Program-made: the position numbers and the translations under genes
Origin: a virus
DNA length: 33,975 bases
Reading direction: 5' to 3' (one strand)
IMG/VR virus record: IMGVR_UViG_3300025101_000012
Location: 1 to 33,975 of that record
The notes under the pieces: model-generated
Database searches by the model: none
What the model was told of the DNA's origin: nothing
The model's input: only the letters and a program-made list of their open reading frames with translations
Part shown: positions 6,479 through 16,045 of the stretch, piece after piece
Layout of the letters: each line of letters starts with the position of its first letter
Position numbering within the stretch: position 1 is the stretch's first letter

Positions 6479-6712
6479 ATGAAATCATTTTTTTTATTTG
6501 CAATGATTTGTTTTGCTGATCCTGAAGCACCACGTGGTATTAGCTGTATGGATTTTAAAGAAAATGATGATAAAATTTATAACTCTCCCAAGGCTTGTTA
6601 TGATGCAGCAAATAAAGTGGGTGATGAAATTAAAATACAATTTACCACTAACGAAATTAAAATATTAGAGTTAATTATTTGGTGTGTAAATACTAAAGGT
6701 GAGATTGTTTAG
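6479..6712 (+). CDS. Small probably exported Cys protein
   Basis: 77 residues. The N-terminus MKSFFLFAMICFADPEAPRG reads as a short signal peptide cleaved near FA-DP. The mature part has three Cys (SCMDF, KACYDA, WCVNT) and would be periplasmic. It ends at 6710-6712 and overlaps the stop codon of the convergent minus-strand DnaA-like gene. It is the third exported-protein candidate of this genome. Confidence 0.65.
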   Translation: MKSFFLFAMICFADPEAPRGISCMDFKENDDKIYNSPKACYDAANKVGDEIKIQFTTNEIKILELIIWCVNTKGEIV

Positions 6713-7254
6713 AAAGATTTAAGTTCTATCTCTAAATCTTTGTATAACTTTTCATAATGTTGCCAAGTAATATTGTGAACATCCCAAAATCTTTTATGGT
6801 CAAACTTCATTCTTAAATGATGTAGGATTGTGGTGTGGTCTCTACCTCCAAGTATTCTACCAATCTCAGGTAAAGATAAAGGTGTCAGTTCTCTGATTAA
6901 ATTAATAATTACAGATCTAACTTCAGCGTATTCTCTCAAACGTCTAGGTGAAATAATCTCTTCATGGGTTCGGTTATAATGACGAAGCACTTTGTTATAA
7001 ATATAATCGGCTTGTCTGTTTGCAGTTTTGTAAACACTGGTTCTGGTATGTTGGTTAGGTGTCTTACCTTTAGCGACATAAATAAATTTTGTAATTGTTT
7101 TTGATTTGATGGTGTGTTCTTGACCTAGTTTATATCCCGTCATAAATGCGGACTGATGAATGTTTCGTTCTCGTTCATTCAAGTTTTCATAAGCAGATAT
7201 ATTTATTTTATAATTATATTCGTCTAATAAATTTTGATTTATATTTTGAGACAT
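6709..7254 (-). CDS. DnaA domain IV-like protein (replication initiator mimic)
   Basis: 181 residues from the ATG at 7254, chosen for the AAGGG ribosome site; an in-frame ATG at 7275 is possible. The C-terminal part (about 98-150) matches the DNA-binding domain IV of DnaA: a SPRRLREYAEVRSVIINLI helix, SLPEIGRILGGRDHTTILHH with the signature GGRDHTT at 136-142. The AAA+ ATPase domain is absent; the N-terminal 95 residues are unrecognised. It should bind DnaA boxes and could mark the phage origin for the host replisome or repress promoters. It ends the leftward operon and its stop overlaps the convergent plus-strand gene. Confidence 0.8.
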   Translation of the reverse strand: MSQNINQNLLDEYNYKINISAYENLNERERNIHQSAFMTGYKLGQEHTIKSKTITKFIYVAKGKTPNQHTRTSVYKTANRQADYIYNKVLRHYNRTHEEIISPRRLREYAEVRSVIINLIRELTPLSLPEIGRILGGRDHTTILHHLRMKFDHKRFWDVHNITWQHYEKLYKDLEIELKSF

Positions 7255-7298
7255 AGAACCCTTCTCTGTTTGCACAGCTTTTAGTTGTTTTATATATG

Positions 7299-7318
7299 CT
7301 TACCAGTTATGCGGTAAG
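7299..7318. repeat. Short perfect inverted repeat (possible operator or hairpin)
   Basis: CTTACC (7299-7304) and GGTAAG (7313-7318) flank 8 bases. It lies between the DnaA-like gene and the end of the 7307-7465 gene. There is no U-tract on either side, so it is not a classic terminator. Confidence 0.35.
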
Positions 7319-7465
7319 TTCTTCTTGAACTCTTTGAACTTTGAAAGTAAGTTGTTTCGCTTCATCAAGATACTTTCTAGCTTTCGCTTGATAAACAAGA
7401 CCCATCTCATATTTTTTTTGTTCCTTGTCTCTCAGCTTCTGGAGTTCCTTTTTGACTTTCGTCAT
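7307..7465 (-). CDS. Small Lys/Gln-rich helical protein
   Basis: 52 residues with a near-ideal ribosome site (AAGGAG, 5 nt spacer, ATG). The sequence MTKVKKELQKLRDKEQKKYE then GLVYQAKARKYLDEAKQLTF and VQRVQEELTA is all-helical and coiled-coil-like. It overlaps the preceding gene's 3' end by 59 nt in another frame. No family recognised. The ribosome site makes it more convincing than its length suggests. Confidence 0.65.
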   Translation of the reverse strand: MTKVKKELQKLRDKEQKKYEMGLVYQAKARKYLDEAKQLTFKVQRVQEELTA

Positions 7466-7625
7466 CTTCTCTCCTTACTGTTGTAAAGTCAATCTTTACT
7501 TCATTGACTTTTACTTCTACTGATAAAGGATTTTTATTATCAGCAGCATTCTCTACGGAAATGAATTTTTGTTCTCTAACAAAATTACAAACTCCGCTAT
7601 CTCTTTTTATATATGATTTTGACAT
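7407..7625 (-). CDS. Hypothetical protein in the leftward operon
   Basis: 72 residues with an AGAGG site 9-10 nt before the ATG. MSKSYIKRDSGVCNFVREQK opens a beta-type N-terminal region; the last 20 residues, charged and Gly/Glu-rich, overlap the strongly initiated 7307-7465 gene. It starts 5 nt after the DUF6378-like gene. No domain recognised. Confidence 0.55.
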   Translation of the reverse strand: MSKSYIKRDSGVCNFVREQKFISVENAADNKNPLSVEVKVNEVKIDFTTVRREDDESQKGTPEAERQGTKKI

Positions 7626-7630
7626 ATTGT

Positions 7631-7906
7631 CTAGTCCTCTTTATGTAAATCTTTTGCCATGTCTAAATAAATACTTGCATCTAAATAAGTGTCAGCTTTG
7701 TAAGCTCGTGTTGTTCTTAACATTTTTAACATCACCATCATGTTCGCTGCTTCGTAAGGTTTGACATCTGATTTTAATTTATCTTTTAATATAACGGACC
7801 AGAGAAAAGCAATCAATCCCATATTCTCTTTATAATCCCCATACTCTTTATCTTTTTGATCTCGGAGTTTCTTCTTAATTTCTTTTTCTAAATCTATTGT
7901 GTTCAT
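7631..7906 (-). CDS. DUF6378-like phage protein
   Basis: 91 residues: KEYGDYKENMGLIAFLWSVI, then VKPYEAANMMVMLKMLRTTR and DTYLDASIYLDMAKD. This is the all-helical DUF6378 layout (YG.....N...IA..WS..L....V...M.MLK..R.....D...D...Y). The family is common in phages and may relate to nucleotide pyrophosphohydrolases; this is not proven. The ATG has no Shine-Dalgarno sequence and lies 11 nt after a highly structured RNA element, so its translation may depend on that structure. Confidence 0.75.
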   Translation of the reverse strand: MNTIDLEKEIKKKLRDQKDKEYGDYKENMGLIAFLWSVILKDKLKSDVKPYEAANMMVMLKMLRTTRAYKADTYLDASIYLDMAKDLHKED

Positions 7907-7917
7907 ATTGTTTTAGC

Positions 7918-8003
7918 GAAACAGGCAAGAGCAAAACAACTTCGAAAGGTTTAGTCTGAAAGGAACGGCTTGTAAGCCATGACTAAAATCTCTCGCCTGT
8001 TTC
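7918..8003 (-). ncRNA. Structured RNA or regulatory element in the replication operon
   Basis: Three nested stems are visible. The outer 14-bp stem is 7918-7931 with 7990-8003, the middle 7-bp stem is TTTAGTC (7950-7956) with GACTAAA (7981-7987), and the apical stem is GGCTT (7967-7971) with AAGCC (7974-7978). The single imperfect pair of the outer stem is G-U in the minus-strand RNA but A-C in the plus-strand RNA, which argues that the minus strand is the functional RNA, as in the surrounding operon. The unpaired regions are asymmetric (18 and 2 nt, then 10 and 2 nt), unlike a plain terminator, and no U-tract follows. It could be a leader controlling the DUF6378-like gene, a processed small RNA or a replication site. 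No known riboswitch is recognised. Confidence 0.7.
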
Positions 8004-8004
8004 A

Positions 8005-8040
8005 TTATAGATATTTATATCACTAGATTAATATCTATAA
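8005..8040. repeat. 11-bp perfect inverted repeat at the end of the SSB-like gene
   Basis: TTATAGATATT (8005-8015) and AATATCTATAA (8030-8040) flank a 14-nt AT-rich loop. The right arm includes the last codons and part of the stop codon of the SSB-like gene. It lies next to the larger structured element and has no U-tract. It may protect or process the mRNA 3' end. Confidence 0.6.
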
Positions 8041-8363
8041 TTTCCCTTACCAAAGTTTCCTCTCTTTTGAAAGTTGTTATTTCCAAAAGACTTTTGTTGG
8101 TAATTAGGTCTGGTATTACCCGCAGCTTTACTACCACCTTCATTCGGTGTGAGTATAACCACAATTCCACCATTAGCTTCACCTGTCTCCATATCTGAAG
8201 ACTCAAAAGCCGCTTGGTTGTACCACGTTTCCCCGATACGAGTTCCCAGTGTCCAGTTTTTATCAGGATACTTGGGGTTCTTTGGTGCAACAAAAGCTGG
8301 AAGGTTATCTCCTGCTTGTTTGTTTGGATTAGGCATAAGATTTATATATATTTTATCTGCCAT
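8028..8363 (-). CDS. Small SSB-like protein (putative)
   Basis: 111 residues with an ideal AAGGAG ribosome site. Residues 1-75 are beta-type (KIYINLMPNPNKQ, WTLGTRIGETWYNQAAF, NGGIVVILTPNEG). Residues about 76-111 are a disordered Gly/Asn/Gln tail ending in an aromatic-basic stretch (FGNNNFQKRGNFGKGNYRY). A compact beta domain with a flexible Gly-rich tail, placed between a nuclease/annealing pair and replication genes, fits a small single-strand DNA-binding or DUF736-like protein. The acidic tip typical of bacterial SSB is absent. The assignment is by shape and context. Confidence 0.6.
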   Translation of the reverse strand: MADKIYINLMPNPNKQAGDNLPAFVAPKNPKYPDKNWTLGTRIGETWYNQAAFESSDMETGEANGGIVVILTPNEGGSKAAGNTRPNYQQKSFGNNNFQKRGNFGKGNYRY

Positions 8364-8371
8364 GTTTCTCC

Positions 8372-8998
8372 TTAGTTGTTATGAACAGGTGTATTTGTAA
8401 AATTATTTTCCTGTTCTAATTGGAACTCACGTGTCTCTATAACATCTGTAATCTCTTTATAAAGTCGTGGTTCATTTTTAAGAAGATAGTCAATCGTATC
8501 TTTATATACGACATCCTTTAGATATTTTAGTCTAGGAAGATGGATTGCTTTTTTAAAACTATCCTTGACATCTTCAACATCCACATCATCATTAAGCTGT
8601 GATGTGTCTTTGGACTCCTTACGAATATCTAAACCTAACTCATCATATTCTTCTTTGCTGGTTAGGTCGTCATCCAATATCCCTAAGTACGTCAAAGCTC
8701 TGCAAAAACTAAAGCTGGTTGCTAAATCAAAGTAACCAGGTTTGTCTCTATATTGTTTTGAAAAACCCTCACTGACAATAAACTCTGGATCTTTGGTACT
8801 GATAATACATTTCATAATCAAAGCACGATCAGAATGTTCCATGAGTTTGAACTGCACACCATAGTCTGATCCAAAGACTTGTCTAAAGTATTTAATTTTT
8901 GACCACGCAGATACTGTATGCTGACCATTTTTGTTTACATACATTCCATCATCTCTGCATAAAGCCATCACTTGTTTTATTTTATCTCTCATTTTCAA
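8372..8998 (-). CDS. Probable single-strand annealing protein (ERF/Rad52-like)
   Basis: 208 residues. The core GSDYGVQFKLME, then MKCIISTKDPEFIVSEGFSK, followed by FDLATSFSFCRALTYLGILD and DDLTSKEEYDEL, has the pattern of phage recombinases of the ERF/Sak type. In these a beta sheet is followed by an A..A..RAL..LGI helix and a short S.EE motif. The C-terminus is acidic and helical. Such proteins anneal single strands during recombination-dependent replication. The RecB/Cas4-like nuclease upstream in the same operon is the expected partner, as with lambda exo/bet. The family call is from pattern reading. Confidence 0.55.
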   Translation of the reverse strand: MKMRDKIKQVMALCRDDGMYVNKNGQHTVSAWSKIKYFRQVFGSDYGVQFKLMEHSDRALIMKCIISTKDPEFIVSEGFSKQYRDKPGYFDLATSFSFCRALTYLGILDDDLTSKEEYDELGLDIRKESKDTSQLNDDVDVEDVKDSFKKAIHLPRLKYLKDVVYKDTIDYLLKNEPRLYKEITDVIETREFQLEQENNFTNTPVHNN

Positions 8999-9215
8999 CT
9001 ACTCCTTTCTCTTGTAGTATTGTTAATGCTTTTTCTCCTACTGTTACTCTTTGGTTTTCTAACACGACCAAGATAGTGACAAAGGTTGCTAACATCAGAC
9101 CCATTAAAGTCCAGTTCACTATTCTAAAAAACTTTGTCAGTTTAGTTTGTCTTATTAGTTCATGTTTTAATTCAAACACATCTACGCTGTGTTCATCCTT
9201 TCTTCTCTGGTGCAT
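8982..9215 (-). CDS. Single-pass membrane protein between nuclease and annealing genes
   Basis: 77 residues from the ATG at 9215, picked because of the strong AAGGAGG ribosome site immediately before it. The frame extends upstream to 9311, but those starts lack such a site. The N-terminal 30 residues are charged (MHQRRKDEHSVDVFELKHEL). One membrane helix spans about 34-52 (VNWTLMGLMLATFVTILVVL). It overlaps the annealing-protein gene by 17 nt. It might tether replication proteins to the membrane or inhibit a host function. Unknown. Confidence 0.65.
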   Translation of the reverse strand: MHQRRKDEHSVDVFELKHELIRQTKLTKFFRIVNWTLMGLMLATFVTILVVLENQRVTVGEKALTILQEKGVVENER

Positions 9216-9298
9216 AACCCTCCTTATGGTTCGTTCATCCATGTTGTTTTGGAGTGGAGAACATAGAACGTAAACAAAAAAGGATATATAAAAACACC

Positions 9299-10183
9299 CT
9301 ACATCCTCCACACTTTTTTTATTTCTTCTAACTGGCTCGGAGTAATGTCCGAGTAATAGAAGCTTTTGAAGTCAGGTGGTTCAACCAACTGGCTAATTTT
9401 ATTCATATCTGCTTCTGTTATTTCTAACAGATTTTGTATAATGAATGCTTTGTTAATCATCTGATCGTAATAATATTTTAGTTCAGGTATTTCTGGTTTA
9501 AATATTCTATATTCATCTGCGTTTACATACACAAGATAAGGTGTCTTTTGTGTACACTGCCAATAGAATGCTAATTGTTTTAAGTGTGCTTCATCTGGTT
9601 CGTCTGGCAACTTTTGTTTGTAACATGATAAACCATTTTTTGTCTGTCTAAAATTAGGCGGTTTCGTTTTAAGTTCCATGATAATATTTTCACTTTCATA
9701 ATCTATTCTGCCAAGAATATCCAAGACCAAACCTTTGGGTGTGTCATAAACATATCGTTCTGCCACAAGCTCTTGTTTACTGAAAATTTCTTTAACTGCT
9801 TTTACAATTTGATTTGCTGTAGGTTCTATGTGTTGCTTCATTTCTTTTCTACATCGTGCATCTCGTTCATCTCTTGGCTCTATTTTATCTATAATTTCAA
9901 TCTCTCTTATTATATTATCTTTTAGTTTTTTTGATGATGGTGTTATCTTTTTACCTGCATCAAAAATATATTTACATAAATGTCTTTGTACTGGATTGTT
10001 ACACGCATTACCAAAGTGTGCTTTGTAACCTGATAACTGCAATCGTCTTTGTTCTTGAGTAAACATAAGATAGTTAATAAAAAATTTTGGCAAAGGAATA
10101 CCCAGAGATGATGGAGATAAATGATCGTAACCCAATCCACCATTCATGGCTTGTCGTATCTTGTTTGCTAATGCTTCATTCAT
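9299..10183 (-). CDS. RecB/Cas4-type PD-(D/E)XK exonuclease
   Basis: 294 residues. The N-terminus has LSPSSLG, usual for the PDDEXK_1 (Cas4/RecB C-terminal) group. The active-site block is GRIDYESENIIMELKTK (Asp161, Glu170, Lys172), with the RecB-family QLAFY motif at 203-207. It likely resects double-stranded DNA ends to feed the annealing protein encoded downstream. It is the first gene of the leftward operon and starts at the divergent control region. Length and motif order agree with phage-encoded members. Confidence 0.8.
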   Translation of the reverse strand: MNEALANKIRQAMNGGLGYDHLSPSSLGIPLPKFFINYLMFTQEQRRLQLSGYKAHFGNACNNPVQRHLCKYIFDAGKKITPSSKKLKDNIIREIEIIDKIEPRDERDARCRKEMKQHIEPTANQIVKAVKEIFSKQELVAERYVYDTPKGLVLDILGRIDYESENIIMELKTKPPNFRQTKNGLSCYKQKLPDEPDEAHLKQLAFYWQCTQKTPYLVYVNADEYRIFKPEIPELKYYYDQMINKAFIIQNLLEITEADMNKISQLVEPPDFKSFYYSDITPSQLEEIKKVWRM

Positions 10184-10199
10184 AGTTGTTTTCCCACAG

Positions 10200-10228
10200 T
10201 GTATAATTTAATTAATGCTTGAAGTCAA
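10200..10228 (-). promoter_or_regulatory. Leftward sigma70-like promoter of the replication operon
   Basis: On the minus strand, TTGACT (10228-10223) and TATACA (10205-10200) are 17 bp apart. It points into the nuclease gene, with its start near 10193. The -10 lies inside a DnaA-box-like sequence, so the DnaA-like product of this operon could repress it. Confidence 0.7.
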
Positions 10229-10247
10229 TACTATTTTGATATATATC
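10219..10247 (+). promoter_or_regulatory. Weak candidate rightward promoter for the Cro-like gene
   Basis: TTGAAG (10219-10224) and TATATC (10242-10247) are 17 bp apart. The -10 is inside the 16-bp palindrome, as expected if the palindrome is an autoregulatory operator. The match to consensus is modest, and TATACA at 10255-10260 is an alternative -10. Confidence 0.35.
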
Positions 10248-10277
10248 AAATAATTATACACAACTAAAGGAATAATA

Positions 10278-10526
10278 ATGACGTTAGAACAATACAGAAA
10301 AGAGATAGCCAAAAAATCATATTATCGTTTTGGTCAAGAAGATCTTGGTATGAGAACTTTAAACCCAGGTTGTATGACCCAACGATGGTGTTTAACAGGT
10401 GATCCTAAATACTGGACTTTGCCTAGTAGTAACATGATGATTAAGATTGAAGAGATCACCAAGGGTAAAGTTAAAATTCAAGATCTAGTCAGAGAACACG
10501 CAAGAAAGAAAGGTGATAATGTTTAA
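10278..10526 (+). CDS. Cro/YdaS-like small DNA-binding regulator
   Basis: 82 residues with a CTAAAGGAATAATA ribosome site. The C-terminal half, MMIKIEEITKGKVKIQDLVREH, matches the end of Cro/YdaS-type HTH proteins (kIeeiT.GkV...dL). The first half has MTLEQYRKEIAKK and MTQRWCLTGDPKYW, where the recognition helix is expected but diverged. It lies just right of a perfect 16-bp palindrome and faces the leftward operon, as Cro does in lambdoid phages. No partner CI-type repressor or integrase is present, so it probably times early gene expression and not lysogeny. Confidence 0.6.
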   Translation: MTLEQYRKEIAKKSYYRFGQEDLGMRTLNPGCMTQRWCLTGDPKYWTLPSSNMMIKIEEITKGKVKIQDLVREHARKKGDNV

Positions 10527-10779
10527 TGAAAGATTTAACCCGACTCCAGTTATTATTGAATGGTTTGACATCAACGCTACAGACGGGGGTTGGCACAGCG
10601 AAGAGGATATTAAAAAACATGAACCCGCAAAATGTATTGACTTGTGTTTTATCTATAGTGAAAGCGATGATCGTGTTATTACTTACTCTTCTTATAACTT
10701 GCACGATGATGGTGCAGTGGAGTATGGATTTATTACAGCAATTCCTACAGGGTGCATACGAAAAATTACAAAACTATGA
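10519..10779 (+). CDS. Conserved small phage protein, unknown function
   Basis: 86 residues from the ATG at 10519, selected because AAAGG lies 5 nt upstream; a GTG at 10513 is in frame. The sequence has VIIEWFDINATDGGWHSEED, then CIDLCFIYSESDDRVITYSS and AIPTGCIRKITKL. The pattern W.D...D.GW, a central strand with Y..E, and IP.GCI..I at the end is frequent in phage genomes as a single small beta protein of unknown role. It overlaps the Cro-like gene by 8 nt and the next gene by ATGA. Confidence 0.75.
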   Translation: MFNERFNPTPVIIEWFDINATDGGWHSEEDIKKHEPAKCIDLCFIYSESDDRVITYSSYNLHDDGAVEYGFITAIPTGCIRKITKL

Positions 10780-11003
10780 CTGATGATAGAGGAGAACTAG
10801 ATTTGACAAGACAGATTGATGATCTAAGTATTCAGCTAGAACAATATAATAAAACATTAGAGATTATGAATGAAGAGAATGCTAACTTAAAAGTTATCAT
10901 ATCACAATTACAAGAAGAAAAATTAGAATTACAAAAAGAAATCCATGATCTCCAATACCAAAGGAACATAAGAGACTATGCGATACGCAAAACATTTTCA
11001 TAA
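10776..11003 (+). CDS. Coiled-coil protein
   Basis: 75 residues from the ATG at 10776, which overlaps the previous stop (ATGA). The chain is almost entirely a heptad-type helix (LTRQIDDLSIQLEQYNKTLE, EENANLKVIISQLQEEKLEL). It is predicted to be a coiled-coil oligomer with no catalytic residues. It overlaps the following gene by 26 nt. Role unknown. Confidence 0.65.
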   Translation: MTDDRGELDLTRQIDDLSIQLEQYNKTLEIMNEENANLKVIISQLQEEKLELQKEIHDLQYQRNIRDYAIRKTFS

Positions 11004-11361
11004 AGATTTATATTCTAAACGACATCGAGACTTTGATGGTATTGCAATGATTGATTTGGATTCACTTGAAGTGTGTTTAAATAAAGGATGTTGGAAACCT
11101 TTAGCGTGTGTTGAGACTGTCTATGATACGGGTAATTATGTTAAGTATACCACTGTCACAGAACACGTTGCCAATGGCTTAAATATACCTGCTTTTTTAG
11201 TGTTCTATCAAAAAGGGTTAGGCAGTAGCCTATTTTATAAAATCAGGCAAGTAGCACCCTTTAAAAGCCGTTTAAGGAGTGTTTCTGAGTATGTTTGGAT
11301 ATCTTATTTGCGTAAATTACAAAGACAGCATCAACCCTACTGTAAACATGGCAAAAGGTAG
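10978..11361 (+). CDS. Hypothetical protein with possible nuclease-like core
   Basis: 127 residues. The central part, GIAMIDLDSLEVCLNKGCWK then PLACVETVYD and NIPAFLVFYQKG, resembles a group of phage proteins with (D-x-D)...C..(K/E)PLA..E....A...IPA..V.Y. These are sometimes modelled as restriction-endonuclease-like, but no clear E-x-K is visible. The C-terminus is basic (RLRSVSEYVWISYLRKLQRQ). Function not assigned. It precedes the winged-helix gene by 8 nt. Confidence 0.65.
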   Translation: MRYAKHFHKDLYSKRHRDFDGIAMIDLDSLEVCLNKGCWKPLACVETVYDTGNYVKYTTVTEHVANGLNIPAFLVFYQKGLGSSLFYKIRQVAPFKSRLRSVSEYVWISYLRKLQRQHQPYCKHGKR

Positions 11362-11369
11362 TCAAGATT

Positions 11370-12026
11370 GTGGCGAATAGATCGTTCTTACTTACAACAT
11401 ATAAGCTGTATCATCATTTGGATAAAGTATCAGGTTCGGCAAAGGCAAACTGTCTATCGGTGTATATGTCTATAATGAAATATGCATGGAGAAAAAATAA
11501 TTATGAGTGTGGGTTGCGACACAGCACAATCGCCAAGGACACGGGACTATCTCGTTCCACCATACATAGATCTTTGTTGACCCTTGCCAAGCTTAATATA
11601 CTTAAAATGTATAAGGGTAGATCTGGAAAAACATATTGTATAAATGCTAAGTTTTTAGTGCCTGAAAAGACTGGTATGTATAAATCTGACACATCTATGT
11701 ATAAAATAGACACAAACTATGTGTCAAATATACAGACATTAGAAGAACAATATATTACATTATACAATATACTAAAATCAGATAGAGATTTGTCTTATAA
11801 GATAGATGCTTTAAGCGTACTCCCCCTTGCTGACTTACAAGCTAATTTAAAATACAATCCTTATTATATTAAGAAAGCTATCGCTTTGAAAAAGGAGAAT
11901 GATAAACCCAAAGTGGAATTGAATACGGGTGCGGTGTTGAAAAAACTAGCCAAGGAAAAGAACCCCCAGTATCATATTAAGAAGCAATATAATATTCGTA
12001 ACAATATCAAACCATGGGAGAAGTAA
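11370..12026 (+). CDS. Winged-helix (HTH_36-like) protein, possible replication initiator or regulator
   Basis: 218 residues beginning with GTG at 11370; no upstream ATG keeps the frame intact. Residues about 20-105 have the helix_turn_helix_36 pattern: ANCLSVYMSIMKYAWRKNN, then ECGLRHSTIAKDTGLSRSTI (recognition helix) and LLTLAKLNILKMYKGRSGKT. The C-terminal half is helical and Lys-rich. Such domains occur at the N-terminus of phage replication initiators (often partnered with DnaC-type loaders) and in regulators. As no polymerase or helicase is encoded, it may help recruit host replication. The GTG start is plausible but not certain. Confidence 0.65.
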   Translation: MANRSFLLTTYKLYHHLDKVSGSAKANCLSVYMSIMKYAWRKNNYECGLRHSTIAKDTGLSRSTIHRSLLTLAKLNILKMYKGRSGKTYCINAKFLVPEKTGMYKSDTSMYKIDTNYVSNIQTLEEQYITLYNILKSDRDLSYKIDALSVLPLADLQANLKYNPYYIKKAIALKKENDKPKVELNTGAVLKKLAKEKNPQYHIKKQYNIRNNIKPWEK

Positions 12027-12030
12027 CAAC

Positions 12031-12423
12031 GTGGTCGCAAAGCCAATGCAGAAAATTCTGTGCCAAGGAAAGTCTAGGCAGACAGGTAAACCTTGTGGGT
12101 GTAAAGGGTATAGAACAGCGACAGGATTATATCTTTGTAAGTATCATGGTGGACAAAACAGATTTGCATTTAACAAACATAACTATTCTGATATAGCACG
12201 TATACGAAAATTAAAGGGACTTAAACAATTTCAAAAGTTTACTGATGATGAACTCGAAAAATATTACAAAGAAAAAGTCAAACCAAGAATTGATAACAAT
12301 CAACCAAGCCGATACTATTTGCGAGAGACTAACAGACGGACTGACTTTAGTAGAGATTTTAGAGGACAAGCAGTATCCGTTCAGCTTGATGAAGTTTTAC
12401 GCATACTTAAAAAAAAATCCTGA
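12031..12423 (+). CDS. Small conserved protein with CxC...CKYHGG metal-binding motif
   Basis: 130 residues from GTG 12031 (ATG at 12046 is an alternative). The N-terminus has CQGKSRQTGKPCGCKGYRTA, then TGLYLCKYHGG. Spaced Cys and His suggest a zinc site of the HGG-type small protein often found upstream of terminases. The rest is helical and charged. Its last 179 bases overlap the small terminase gene in another frame, which is long for this genome. Function unknown; the position links it to DNA packaging. Confidence 0.65.
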   Translation: MVAKPMQKILCQGKSRQTGKPCGCKGYRTATGLYLCKYHGGQNRFAFNKHNYSDIARIRKLKGLKQFQKFTDDELEKYYKEKVKPRIDNNQPSRYYLRETNRRTDFSRDFRGQAVSVQLDEVLRILKKKS

Positions 12424-12715
12424 ACTTGAAGAGAGAATAACTGAAGCTAGAAAACATGGTATTCAAACTTTAGTTGATAAGATGCTCCGAATATATGATA
12501 GTGATAAAGTACCAGATCAATCACTCATTTTATTTTTAAGGGACAAGCAATCATTCCTGAAGTGGATTGCTGGTAAGGTTACAGATATTTATTCAGATAA
12601 TAAAGTCCAGAATATTAAGCAAGATACATCACTCAATATTTCTTGGTCGGATGGTAGTCAGATTAAGGAGATTGAGGGGATTGTTGACGAGATAGAACAA
12701 CCCCCTAAAAATTAA
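12245..12715 (+). CDS. Terminase small subunit (TerS)
   Basis: Up to 156 residues; the true start is uncertain (ATG at 12245 or 12248, neither with a clear ribosome site). The core, ADTICERLTDGLTLVEILED followed by FSLMKFYAYLKKNPELEERI and TEARKHGIQTLVDKMLRIYD, is the Sf6-type terminase small subunit pattern: an HTH that reads packaging DNA followed by an oligomerisation helix. SFLKWIAGKVTDIYSDNKVQ matches the conserved WLA.K..P..YGDK region. It should bind the packaging site and guide TerL, encoded 3.5 kb away past an inserted minus-strand block. It ends one base before the stop codon of a convergent gene. Confidence 0.75.
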   Translation: MMNSKNITKKKSNQELITINQADTICERLTDGLTLVEILEDKQYPFSLMKFYAYLKKNPELEERITEARKHGIQTLVDKMLRIYDSDKVPDQSLILFLRDKQSFLKWIAGKVTDIYSDNKVQNIKQDTSLNISWSDGSQIKEIEGIVDEIEQPPKN

Positions 12716-15645: not shown

Positions 15646-15675
15646 TTTATTTCCTTTTGTTAGTTGTTTAATGTA

Positions 15676-15703
15676 GTTATATCATTATTGAGACAATAGT
15701 CAA
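15676..15703 (-). promoter_or_regulatory. Leftward promoter at the head of the accessory block
   Basis: On the minus strand, TTGACT (15703-15698) is 16 bp from TATAAC (15681-15676), with TGA before the -10 (TGATATAAC). It points into the tiny membrane-protein gene at 15481-15645. Confidence 0.65.
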
Positions 15704-16045
15704 TACATAGAATTAAAAAAGTTTATTGGTGTAATAAAGTTGTAATTTTTTTATTCAGCGAGCCACCGCCAACTCTCACAACAAGAGCAACGGCAACCAA
15801 TATAAAAGAATAAATTAATATATTTTCCTATAACTTTCTATTATCACGTCTATATATAATATATGACAGCTACATTTTTGCAAAACTAACATAGGGTATA
15901 CACCAAAAAGTCATCGCACTTTATTATATATATATTCATGGGACTGTAGGACACCTTTAGCCAGACACACTTACCCCACCCCGCTAAAACAACCCACACC
16001 TTTTCCTCTTTGCCAAGCCTACCTAAATACTATATCTGGTATAGG
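15704..16045. other. Long non-coding region before the terminase block
   Basis: About 340 bases without a convincing gene, the longest gap in the genome. It contains a GC-richer island around 15764-15808 within very AT-rich DNA, alternating AT runs (15860-15870 and 15922-15935) and a G-poor, C-rich plus strand around 15965-16005 (ACCCCACCCC and ACCCACACC). I find no clear promoter for the late block here, though one must lie nearby. A packaging signal or late promoter is possible. Confidence 0.5.

Follow-up and report, generated by a model that had tools for sequence, protein, structure and literature searches.

We propose that the 94-bp gap between the two divergent early operons of this phage (10184-10277) is an early promoter/operator region, and that replication starts at iterons and an AT-rich tract within an O-like initiator gene (11675-11800). 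We put the probability of this explanation at roughly 0.7. Its basis is formed by sequence elements, comparative conservation, covariation and predicted folds, from which we infer promoter activity, protein binding and the replication start.

The window, that is, the whole stretch of 33,975 nucleotides analysed here, comes from a complete HTVC010P-type pelagiphage, an ocean phage of SAR11 bacteria. The window carries a 99-bp direct terminal repeat and hence corresponds to a genome that closes at about 33,876 bp. Of the known marine phage groups, the HTVC010P type is one of the most abundant. Among phage records, full-length matches to the nuclease, the DnaA-domain-IV protein and the O-like protein came almost only from HTVC010P-type Pelagibacter phages, and the gene order around the gap is common to HTVC010P, HTVC034P, Greip, Lederberg, Skadi-1 and others.

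Predicted divergent early promoters and the Cro-like gene

The early region and the gap contain the following features.

6709-10183, minus strand: leftward early genes, left of the gap
6709-7257, minus strand: DnaA-domain-IV protein without an AAA+ domain (Pfam Bac_DnaA_C, E = 1.2e-19)
9299-10183, minus strand: early nuclease gene, which opens the leftward operon (relatives annotated 'putative nuclease')
10184-10277: gap flanked by the nuclease gene (minus) and the Cro-like gene (plus), predicted to hold divergent early promoters and an operator, 94 bp, 78% AT
10198-10206, minus strand: TTATACACT, DnaA-box-like and forming the inverted repeat's left arm, the same in near relatives and missing from L005 and L007
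10200-10228, minus strand: predicted leftward promoter, -35 TTGACT (10228-10223), 17-bp spacer, -10 TATACA (10205-10200), from the sequence and the TTGACAA of relatives
10219-10247, plus strand: predicted rightward promoter, -35 TTGAAG (10219-10224), 17-bp spacer, -10 TATATC (10242-10247), from the sequence and the TTGTCA-16/17-TATATA or TATAAC of relatives
10235-10250: perfect 16-bp palindrome TTTGATATATATCAAA over the rightward -10, probable Cro-like operator (sequence, gap shuffling and Cro comparison)
10254-10262, plus strand: TTATACACA, a DnaA box that forms the inverted repeat's right arm, just past the predicted start of rightward transcription
10278-12715, plus strand: rightward early genes, right of the gap
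10278-10526, plus strand: Cro/YdaS-like helix-turn-helix (HTH) protein, first rightward gene (AF2 pLDDT 94; nearest PDB structure YdaS)

The sequence-only reading had regarded this gap as a candidate phage origin and switch, built from inverted DnaA boxes around a palindrome. The elements that it described are all present at its coordinates: the inverted DnaA-box-like pair, the exact 10-bp inverted repeat (GTGTATAATT at 10199-10208 and AATTATACAC at 10252-10261) and the palindrome. It was also right that the gap separates divergent early operons and that the leftward -10 is overlapped by a box, since TATACA sits inside the left DnaA-box-like sequence, TTATACACT, whose last base departs from the DnaA box consensus. 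The rightward -10 TATATC sits inside the palindrome.

Genome-wide, each of these elements occurs about as often as expected. The strict box TTATNCACA was found twice against 3.0 expected, which is not above chance; 10-bp inverted repeats with spacers of 20-80 bp numbered 7 (6.4 expected), and there was one 16-bp palindrome (1.25 expected). When the 94-bp gap itself was shuffled, a 16-bp palindrome in it had a p-value of about 0.01, and the only two copies of TTATACAC in the whole genome both lie in the gap, in inverted orientation. Singly the elements are thus unremarkable, and that all of them should meet within 94 bp is beyond expectation.

We compared the gap with those of eight close relatives and with about 50 nonredundant gaps; the metagenomic loci used are fragmentary. 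A TTGTCAA core was present in 37 of 50 nonredundant gaps; read leftward it gives TTGACAA and read rightward TTGTCA, so that the two -35 elements overlap. The sequence 16-17 bp to its right is TATAAC where the Cro-like gene is lacking and mostly TATATA where it is present. The rightward -10 scored at least 5/6 in 76% of the relatives' cases (9% in shuffles), and the leftward -10 is poorly conserved among relatives. In L005 and L007, whose nucleases share 81% and 69% identity with that of the window, the left arm is lost along with the palindrome, and GTCAAT and the ATATAT stretch are kept. As read from these comparisons, the conserved core of the gap is a predicted promoter element and not the DnaA boxes, and the gap most likely serves to turn the two early gene sets on and off. 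Another match from the promoter scan, TTCATA-17-TATAAT (10179-10207, plus strand), was dropped because promoter-like matches in the region were as frequent as in shuffles (7 vs 7.3) and the relatives keep the other element.

The gap would accordingly hold two sigma70-type promoters back to back, with predicted starts close to 10193 (minus strand) and 10253 (plus strand). The leftward one would drive the recombination/DnaA-IV operon (nuclease, annealing protein and DnaA-IV), and the rightward one the operon that holds the replication initiator. The two arms would then coincide with the leftward -10 and the initial transcribed region of the rightward promoter, with binding by DnaA or DnaA-IV possible and secondary.

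The first rightward gene encodes a protein of 82 residues with a predicted HTH fold. Among solved structures the closest to it is that of YdaS, which is a Cro analogue (PMC8630535), with a weak match (E = 0.65, probability 0.90); a sequence match was found in neither Pfam nor PHROGs. Palindromy of the rightward -10 was higher in Cro-positive than in Cro-negative phages (means of 5.9 and 4.6 out of 8 pairs, against 4.9 after shuffling; p = 3e-6 by Mann-Whitney test), a difference to which the TATAAC of the Cro-negative phages contributes trivially by depressing their score, and which is not phylogenetically independent because Cro-positive and Cro-negative phages split by clade. The Cro-like gene is missing and the rightward -10 is uniformly TATAAC in many relatives (many of L020-L076) and in four named phages (L112 and L115-L117). 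A palindromic -10 goes with the Cro-like gene, and therefore an operator is the simplest reading of the palindrome. We consider 10235-10250 the probable operator of the adjacent Cro-like protein, which would repress its own promoter by binding over the rightward -10.

Of the components of a lambda-like immunity region, the divergent promoters, the Cro-like repressor and a putative operator are present as judged from sequence and fold. A CI-type repressor is not there leftward from the gap, where the first gene is the nuclease homologue; nothing CI-like lies beside the gap, and neither CI nor an integrase was found. Phages related to HTVC010P are described as lytic and without integrase (PMC6811365). 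The window phage is likewise predicted to be lytic and shows no sign of lysogeny. The proposed 'switch' is therefore supported in the sense of early promoter/operator control and unsupported in the sense of a decision between lysis and lysogeny.

An O-like initiator gene with internal iterons

About 1.4 kb downstream of the gap lie the features on which the proposed replication start depends.

11370-12026, plus strand: lambda-O-like replication initiator with a winged HTH (residues 1-97), a disordered linker (101-128) and a helical C-terminal domain (PHROG 678 and AF2)
11675-11726, plus strand: iteron array, TATGTATAAATCTGACACA at 11675-11693, TATGTATAAAATAGACACA at 11696-11714 and inverted TGTGTCA at 11720-11726 (sequence and repeats in relatives)
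11735-11800, plus strand: AT-rich tract adjoining the iterons, a candidate for the unwinding element, with about 80% AT (AT profile)

The profile PHROG 678, 'replication initiation O-like', was matched by 20 of 22 homologues (best E = 1.4e-9; window protein 4.7e-5). BFVD matches included 'Replisome organizer' and 'lambda, GpO, N-terminal', and a PDB sequence search gave nothing useful. In GenBank the genes of relatives are annotated 'putative transcriptional regulator'. We identified no helicase loader of the lambda P kind in the window, where the gene after O (12031 to about 12420) is without a Pfam match; for Skadi-1, a lambda-like replication machinery including a helicase loader has been reported (PMC10504331). 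The genes flanking O on both sides (10978-11361 and 12031-12423) had no convincing Pfam match. Further along the same operon, 12245-12715 encodes an Sf6-type small terminase subunit (PF20901, E = 3e-11), which published pelagiphage records call only 'DNA binding protein'.

The window has two direct 19-bp iterons and one inverted 7-bp core, and these fall in the DNA for the low-confidence disordered linker (AF2). A mid-gene repeat array, with varying words, was present in nearly all related phages examined. Across 53 nonredundant genes the iteron zone contained 364 repeat pairs, compared with 58 ± 10.5 in synonymous shuffles (largest 89), a sixfold excess, and cross-frame or inverted pairs numbered 278 (32.6 ± 6.7 in the shuffles). 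Per gene, about 6.9 repeat pairs were found in the iteron zone and 1.2 in other zones. The AT peak of relatives follows directly after the iterons, at gene nucleotides 341-440, and the window reaches about 0.8 at 11740-11800. The word GATAGCC is read as I-A and as D-S within one gene, and this use of two reading frames indicates that selection acts on the iteron DNA.

Iteron words are specific to clades. Many cultured phages carry GATAGCCGT, other clades GATAGCTC/GAGCTATC, GAGAACAC, AAGAACACYCT or TGAAACA, and the window TGACACA. We found that iteron type was correlated with the recognition helix of the HTH (partial Mantel r = 0.49, p = 0.0005), in a test that controls shared ancestry in part and in which some N-terminal segments outside the HTH also reach 0.5-0.6. 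By sliding segment, the covariation was maximal (0.71) around residues 47-60 and about 0 in the C-terminal domain. The winged HTH of the O-like protein would thus bind the iterons, in a layout like that of lambda pR, O and ori. The word TTATACA, 5 of whose 12 copies lie at 11608-11766 in the O gene, was considered as a set of DnaA-like boxes and rejected; since it is restricted to the window clade, the general feature is the iteron position and not TTATACA.

Other readings of the boxes and the repeats

That the gap itself is the origin, a mini-oriC bound by host DnaA, phage DnaA-IV or both, was the view of the sequence-only reading, and we consider it very improbable. It draws on the two DnaA-box-like sequences that flank AT-rich DNA, as in bacterial oriC, on arms that are the same in the window and L003 while the middle varies, and on a phage DnaA-IV protein, correctly recognised in that reading, that keeps all its base contacts; the density of TTATNCACA is also 0.83 per kb in gaps against a background of 0.065, a figure that comes from few clades. 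However, the gap has just two boxes, one strict and one off-consensus, with no cluster of three or more, and the arms are lost in L005 and L007. Strict boxes occur in 0 of roughly 27 Cro-negative gaps and are missing from most Cro-positive gaps, despite a DnaA-IV gene in every named HTVC010P-type phage; the palindrome tracks the Cro-like gene, and a stronger origin signature lies in the O-like gene at about 11.7 kb. The cumulative GC-skew minimum, expected at the gap in the sequence-only reading, is at 16,036, which is weak evidence since coding-strand third-position skew is positive in both gene directions in the early region and the curve follows gene orientation; GC skew was therefore rejected as an origin test. 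The O-gene repeats, for their part, could be operators of an O-like protein that acts as a transcription regulator, as the label given to relatives suggests and as winged-HTH folds, common to many regulators, would permit. We regard this as unlikely, because replication-initiator profiles dominate among the matches, the repeats lie mid-gene in the linker beside the AT peak as in lambdoid ori (PMC7466680), and the phages are without a DNA polymerase gene, with the lambda-like machinery reported for Skadi-1 (PMC10504331).

Two further readings concern the arms. Their likeness to DnaA boxes may be chance in AT-rich promoter DNA, the arms being mere promoter and leader, and to this we give nearly even odds: each element is at its chance level genome-wide and TATACA would simply be the leftward -10, but both copies of TTATACAC lie inverted in the gap and both arms are unchanged throughout the near clade. 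Alternatively, DnaA-IV or host DnaA may bind both arms and regulate both early promoters, which in turn would govern transcription across the O-gene origin, in the way that host DnaA acts at lambda pR/ori. Such a role fits the promoter/operator explanation, to which it adds one regulator, and we hold it tentatively, at somewhat longer odds than chance resemblance. The phage protein matches domain IV of E. coli DnaA (1j1v), whose base-specific contacts are residues 399, 423, 432-435, 438 and 439 (PMC5043019), and all eight are identical in the DnaA-IV of the window clade. Most cultured HTVC010P-type phages have S or T at 423 together with Q at 432, and in most of them the gap is free of boxes. 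Between the window and L003 there were 0 changes in 22 arm positions and 9 in 42 positions between the arms. However, the correlation of boxes with contact residues rests essentially on one clade, L100, L103 and L016 carry GRDHTT or KRDHTT yet have no box in the region examined, and arm conservation could be explained equally by the promoter -10 and the leader sequence.

DnaA boxes were rejected as a group-wide gap feature, since they belong mainly to one clade among about 50 relatives. Because boxes are mostly absent where DnaA-IV is present, the group-wide role of DnaA-IV cannot depend on them. In the window clade, they could nevertheless be real DnaA-IV binding sites. The R432 to Q replacement and the changed residue 423, seen in the cultured-phage homologues (in L111-L120) and not in the window clade, possibly reflect a shift of box specificity. 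A fuller scheme is that in the window clade DnaA-IV binds the inverted boxes over its own early promoters, replaces host DnaA in its lambda-pR role and so couples early transcription to the firing of an origin whose iterons have coevolved with the O-like initiator inside its own gene; as a whole, this would be a long shot, though not a negligible one.

A second and larger divergent gap (15646-16009, 364 bp) lies between the leftward genes at 12.7-15.6 kb and the terminase operon. The GC-skew minimum adjoins this gap, which contains a C-rich, G-poor stretch at about 15955-16000.

Relation to lambda and meaning for pelagiphages

The lambda origin lies in gene O, transcribed from pR, and shares with the window the mid-gene iterons and AT-rich tract in the initiator (PMC7466680, PMC3985674); in both, a divergent early promoter region, with a Cro-like gene first, lies upstream of the initiator. 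However, lambda ori has four iterons of about 19 bp, each of them an imperfect inverted repeat, whereas pelagiphages usually have two direct iterons and one short inverted iteron, with words that vary by clade. HTVC010P-type phages also have a podovirus-like head-tail connector and are reported to be without DNA polymerase, and the leftward operon of the window carries recombination and DnaA-IV genes in a phage where no CI or integrase was found. The YdaS/Cro region of the lambdoid prophage CP-933P similarly has a small HTH gene adjoining overlapping divergent promoters (PMC8630535), and YdaS is the fold nearest to the window Cro-like prediction; unlike CP-933P, the window has no CI/PaaR2-like partner, a single short palindrome and a predicted lytic phage. 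In contrast to oriC, the gap has boxes that are few, partly off-consensus and unconserved in relatives. HTVC010P, Skadi, Greip, Lederberg and HTVC024P share gene order and the DnaA-IV, O-like and nuclease genes with the window, and the cultured members differ from it in their iteron words, in Q at DnaA-IV 432 and in mostly having no gap boxes.

We found no published replication origin for HTVC010P-type phages in the literature searched, whose coverage of the group is incomplete. The origin proposed here in the O gene would belong to the lambda type and lie in a marine phage group of very high abundance. The idea of DnaA boxes is redirected from an origin to possible transcription control, and the phages without a Cro-like gene, with their uniform TATAAC -10, provide a ready-made contrast for judging operator function. 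An origin of lambda type, whose iterons vary by clade and match the HTH, would give a concrete site for mapping replication starts. Such matching would make initiator specificity readable from sequence, and the clade-specific iterons would make incompatibility between co-infecting pelagiphages testable.
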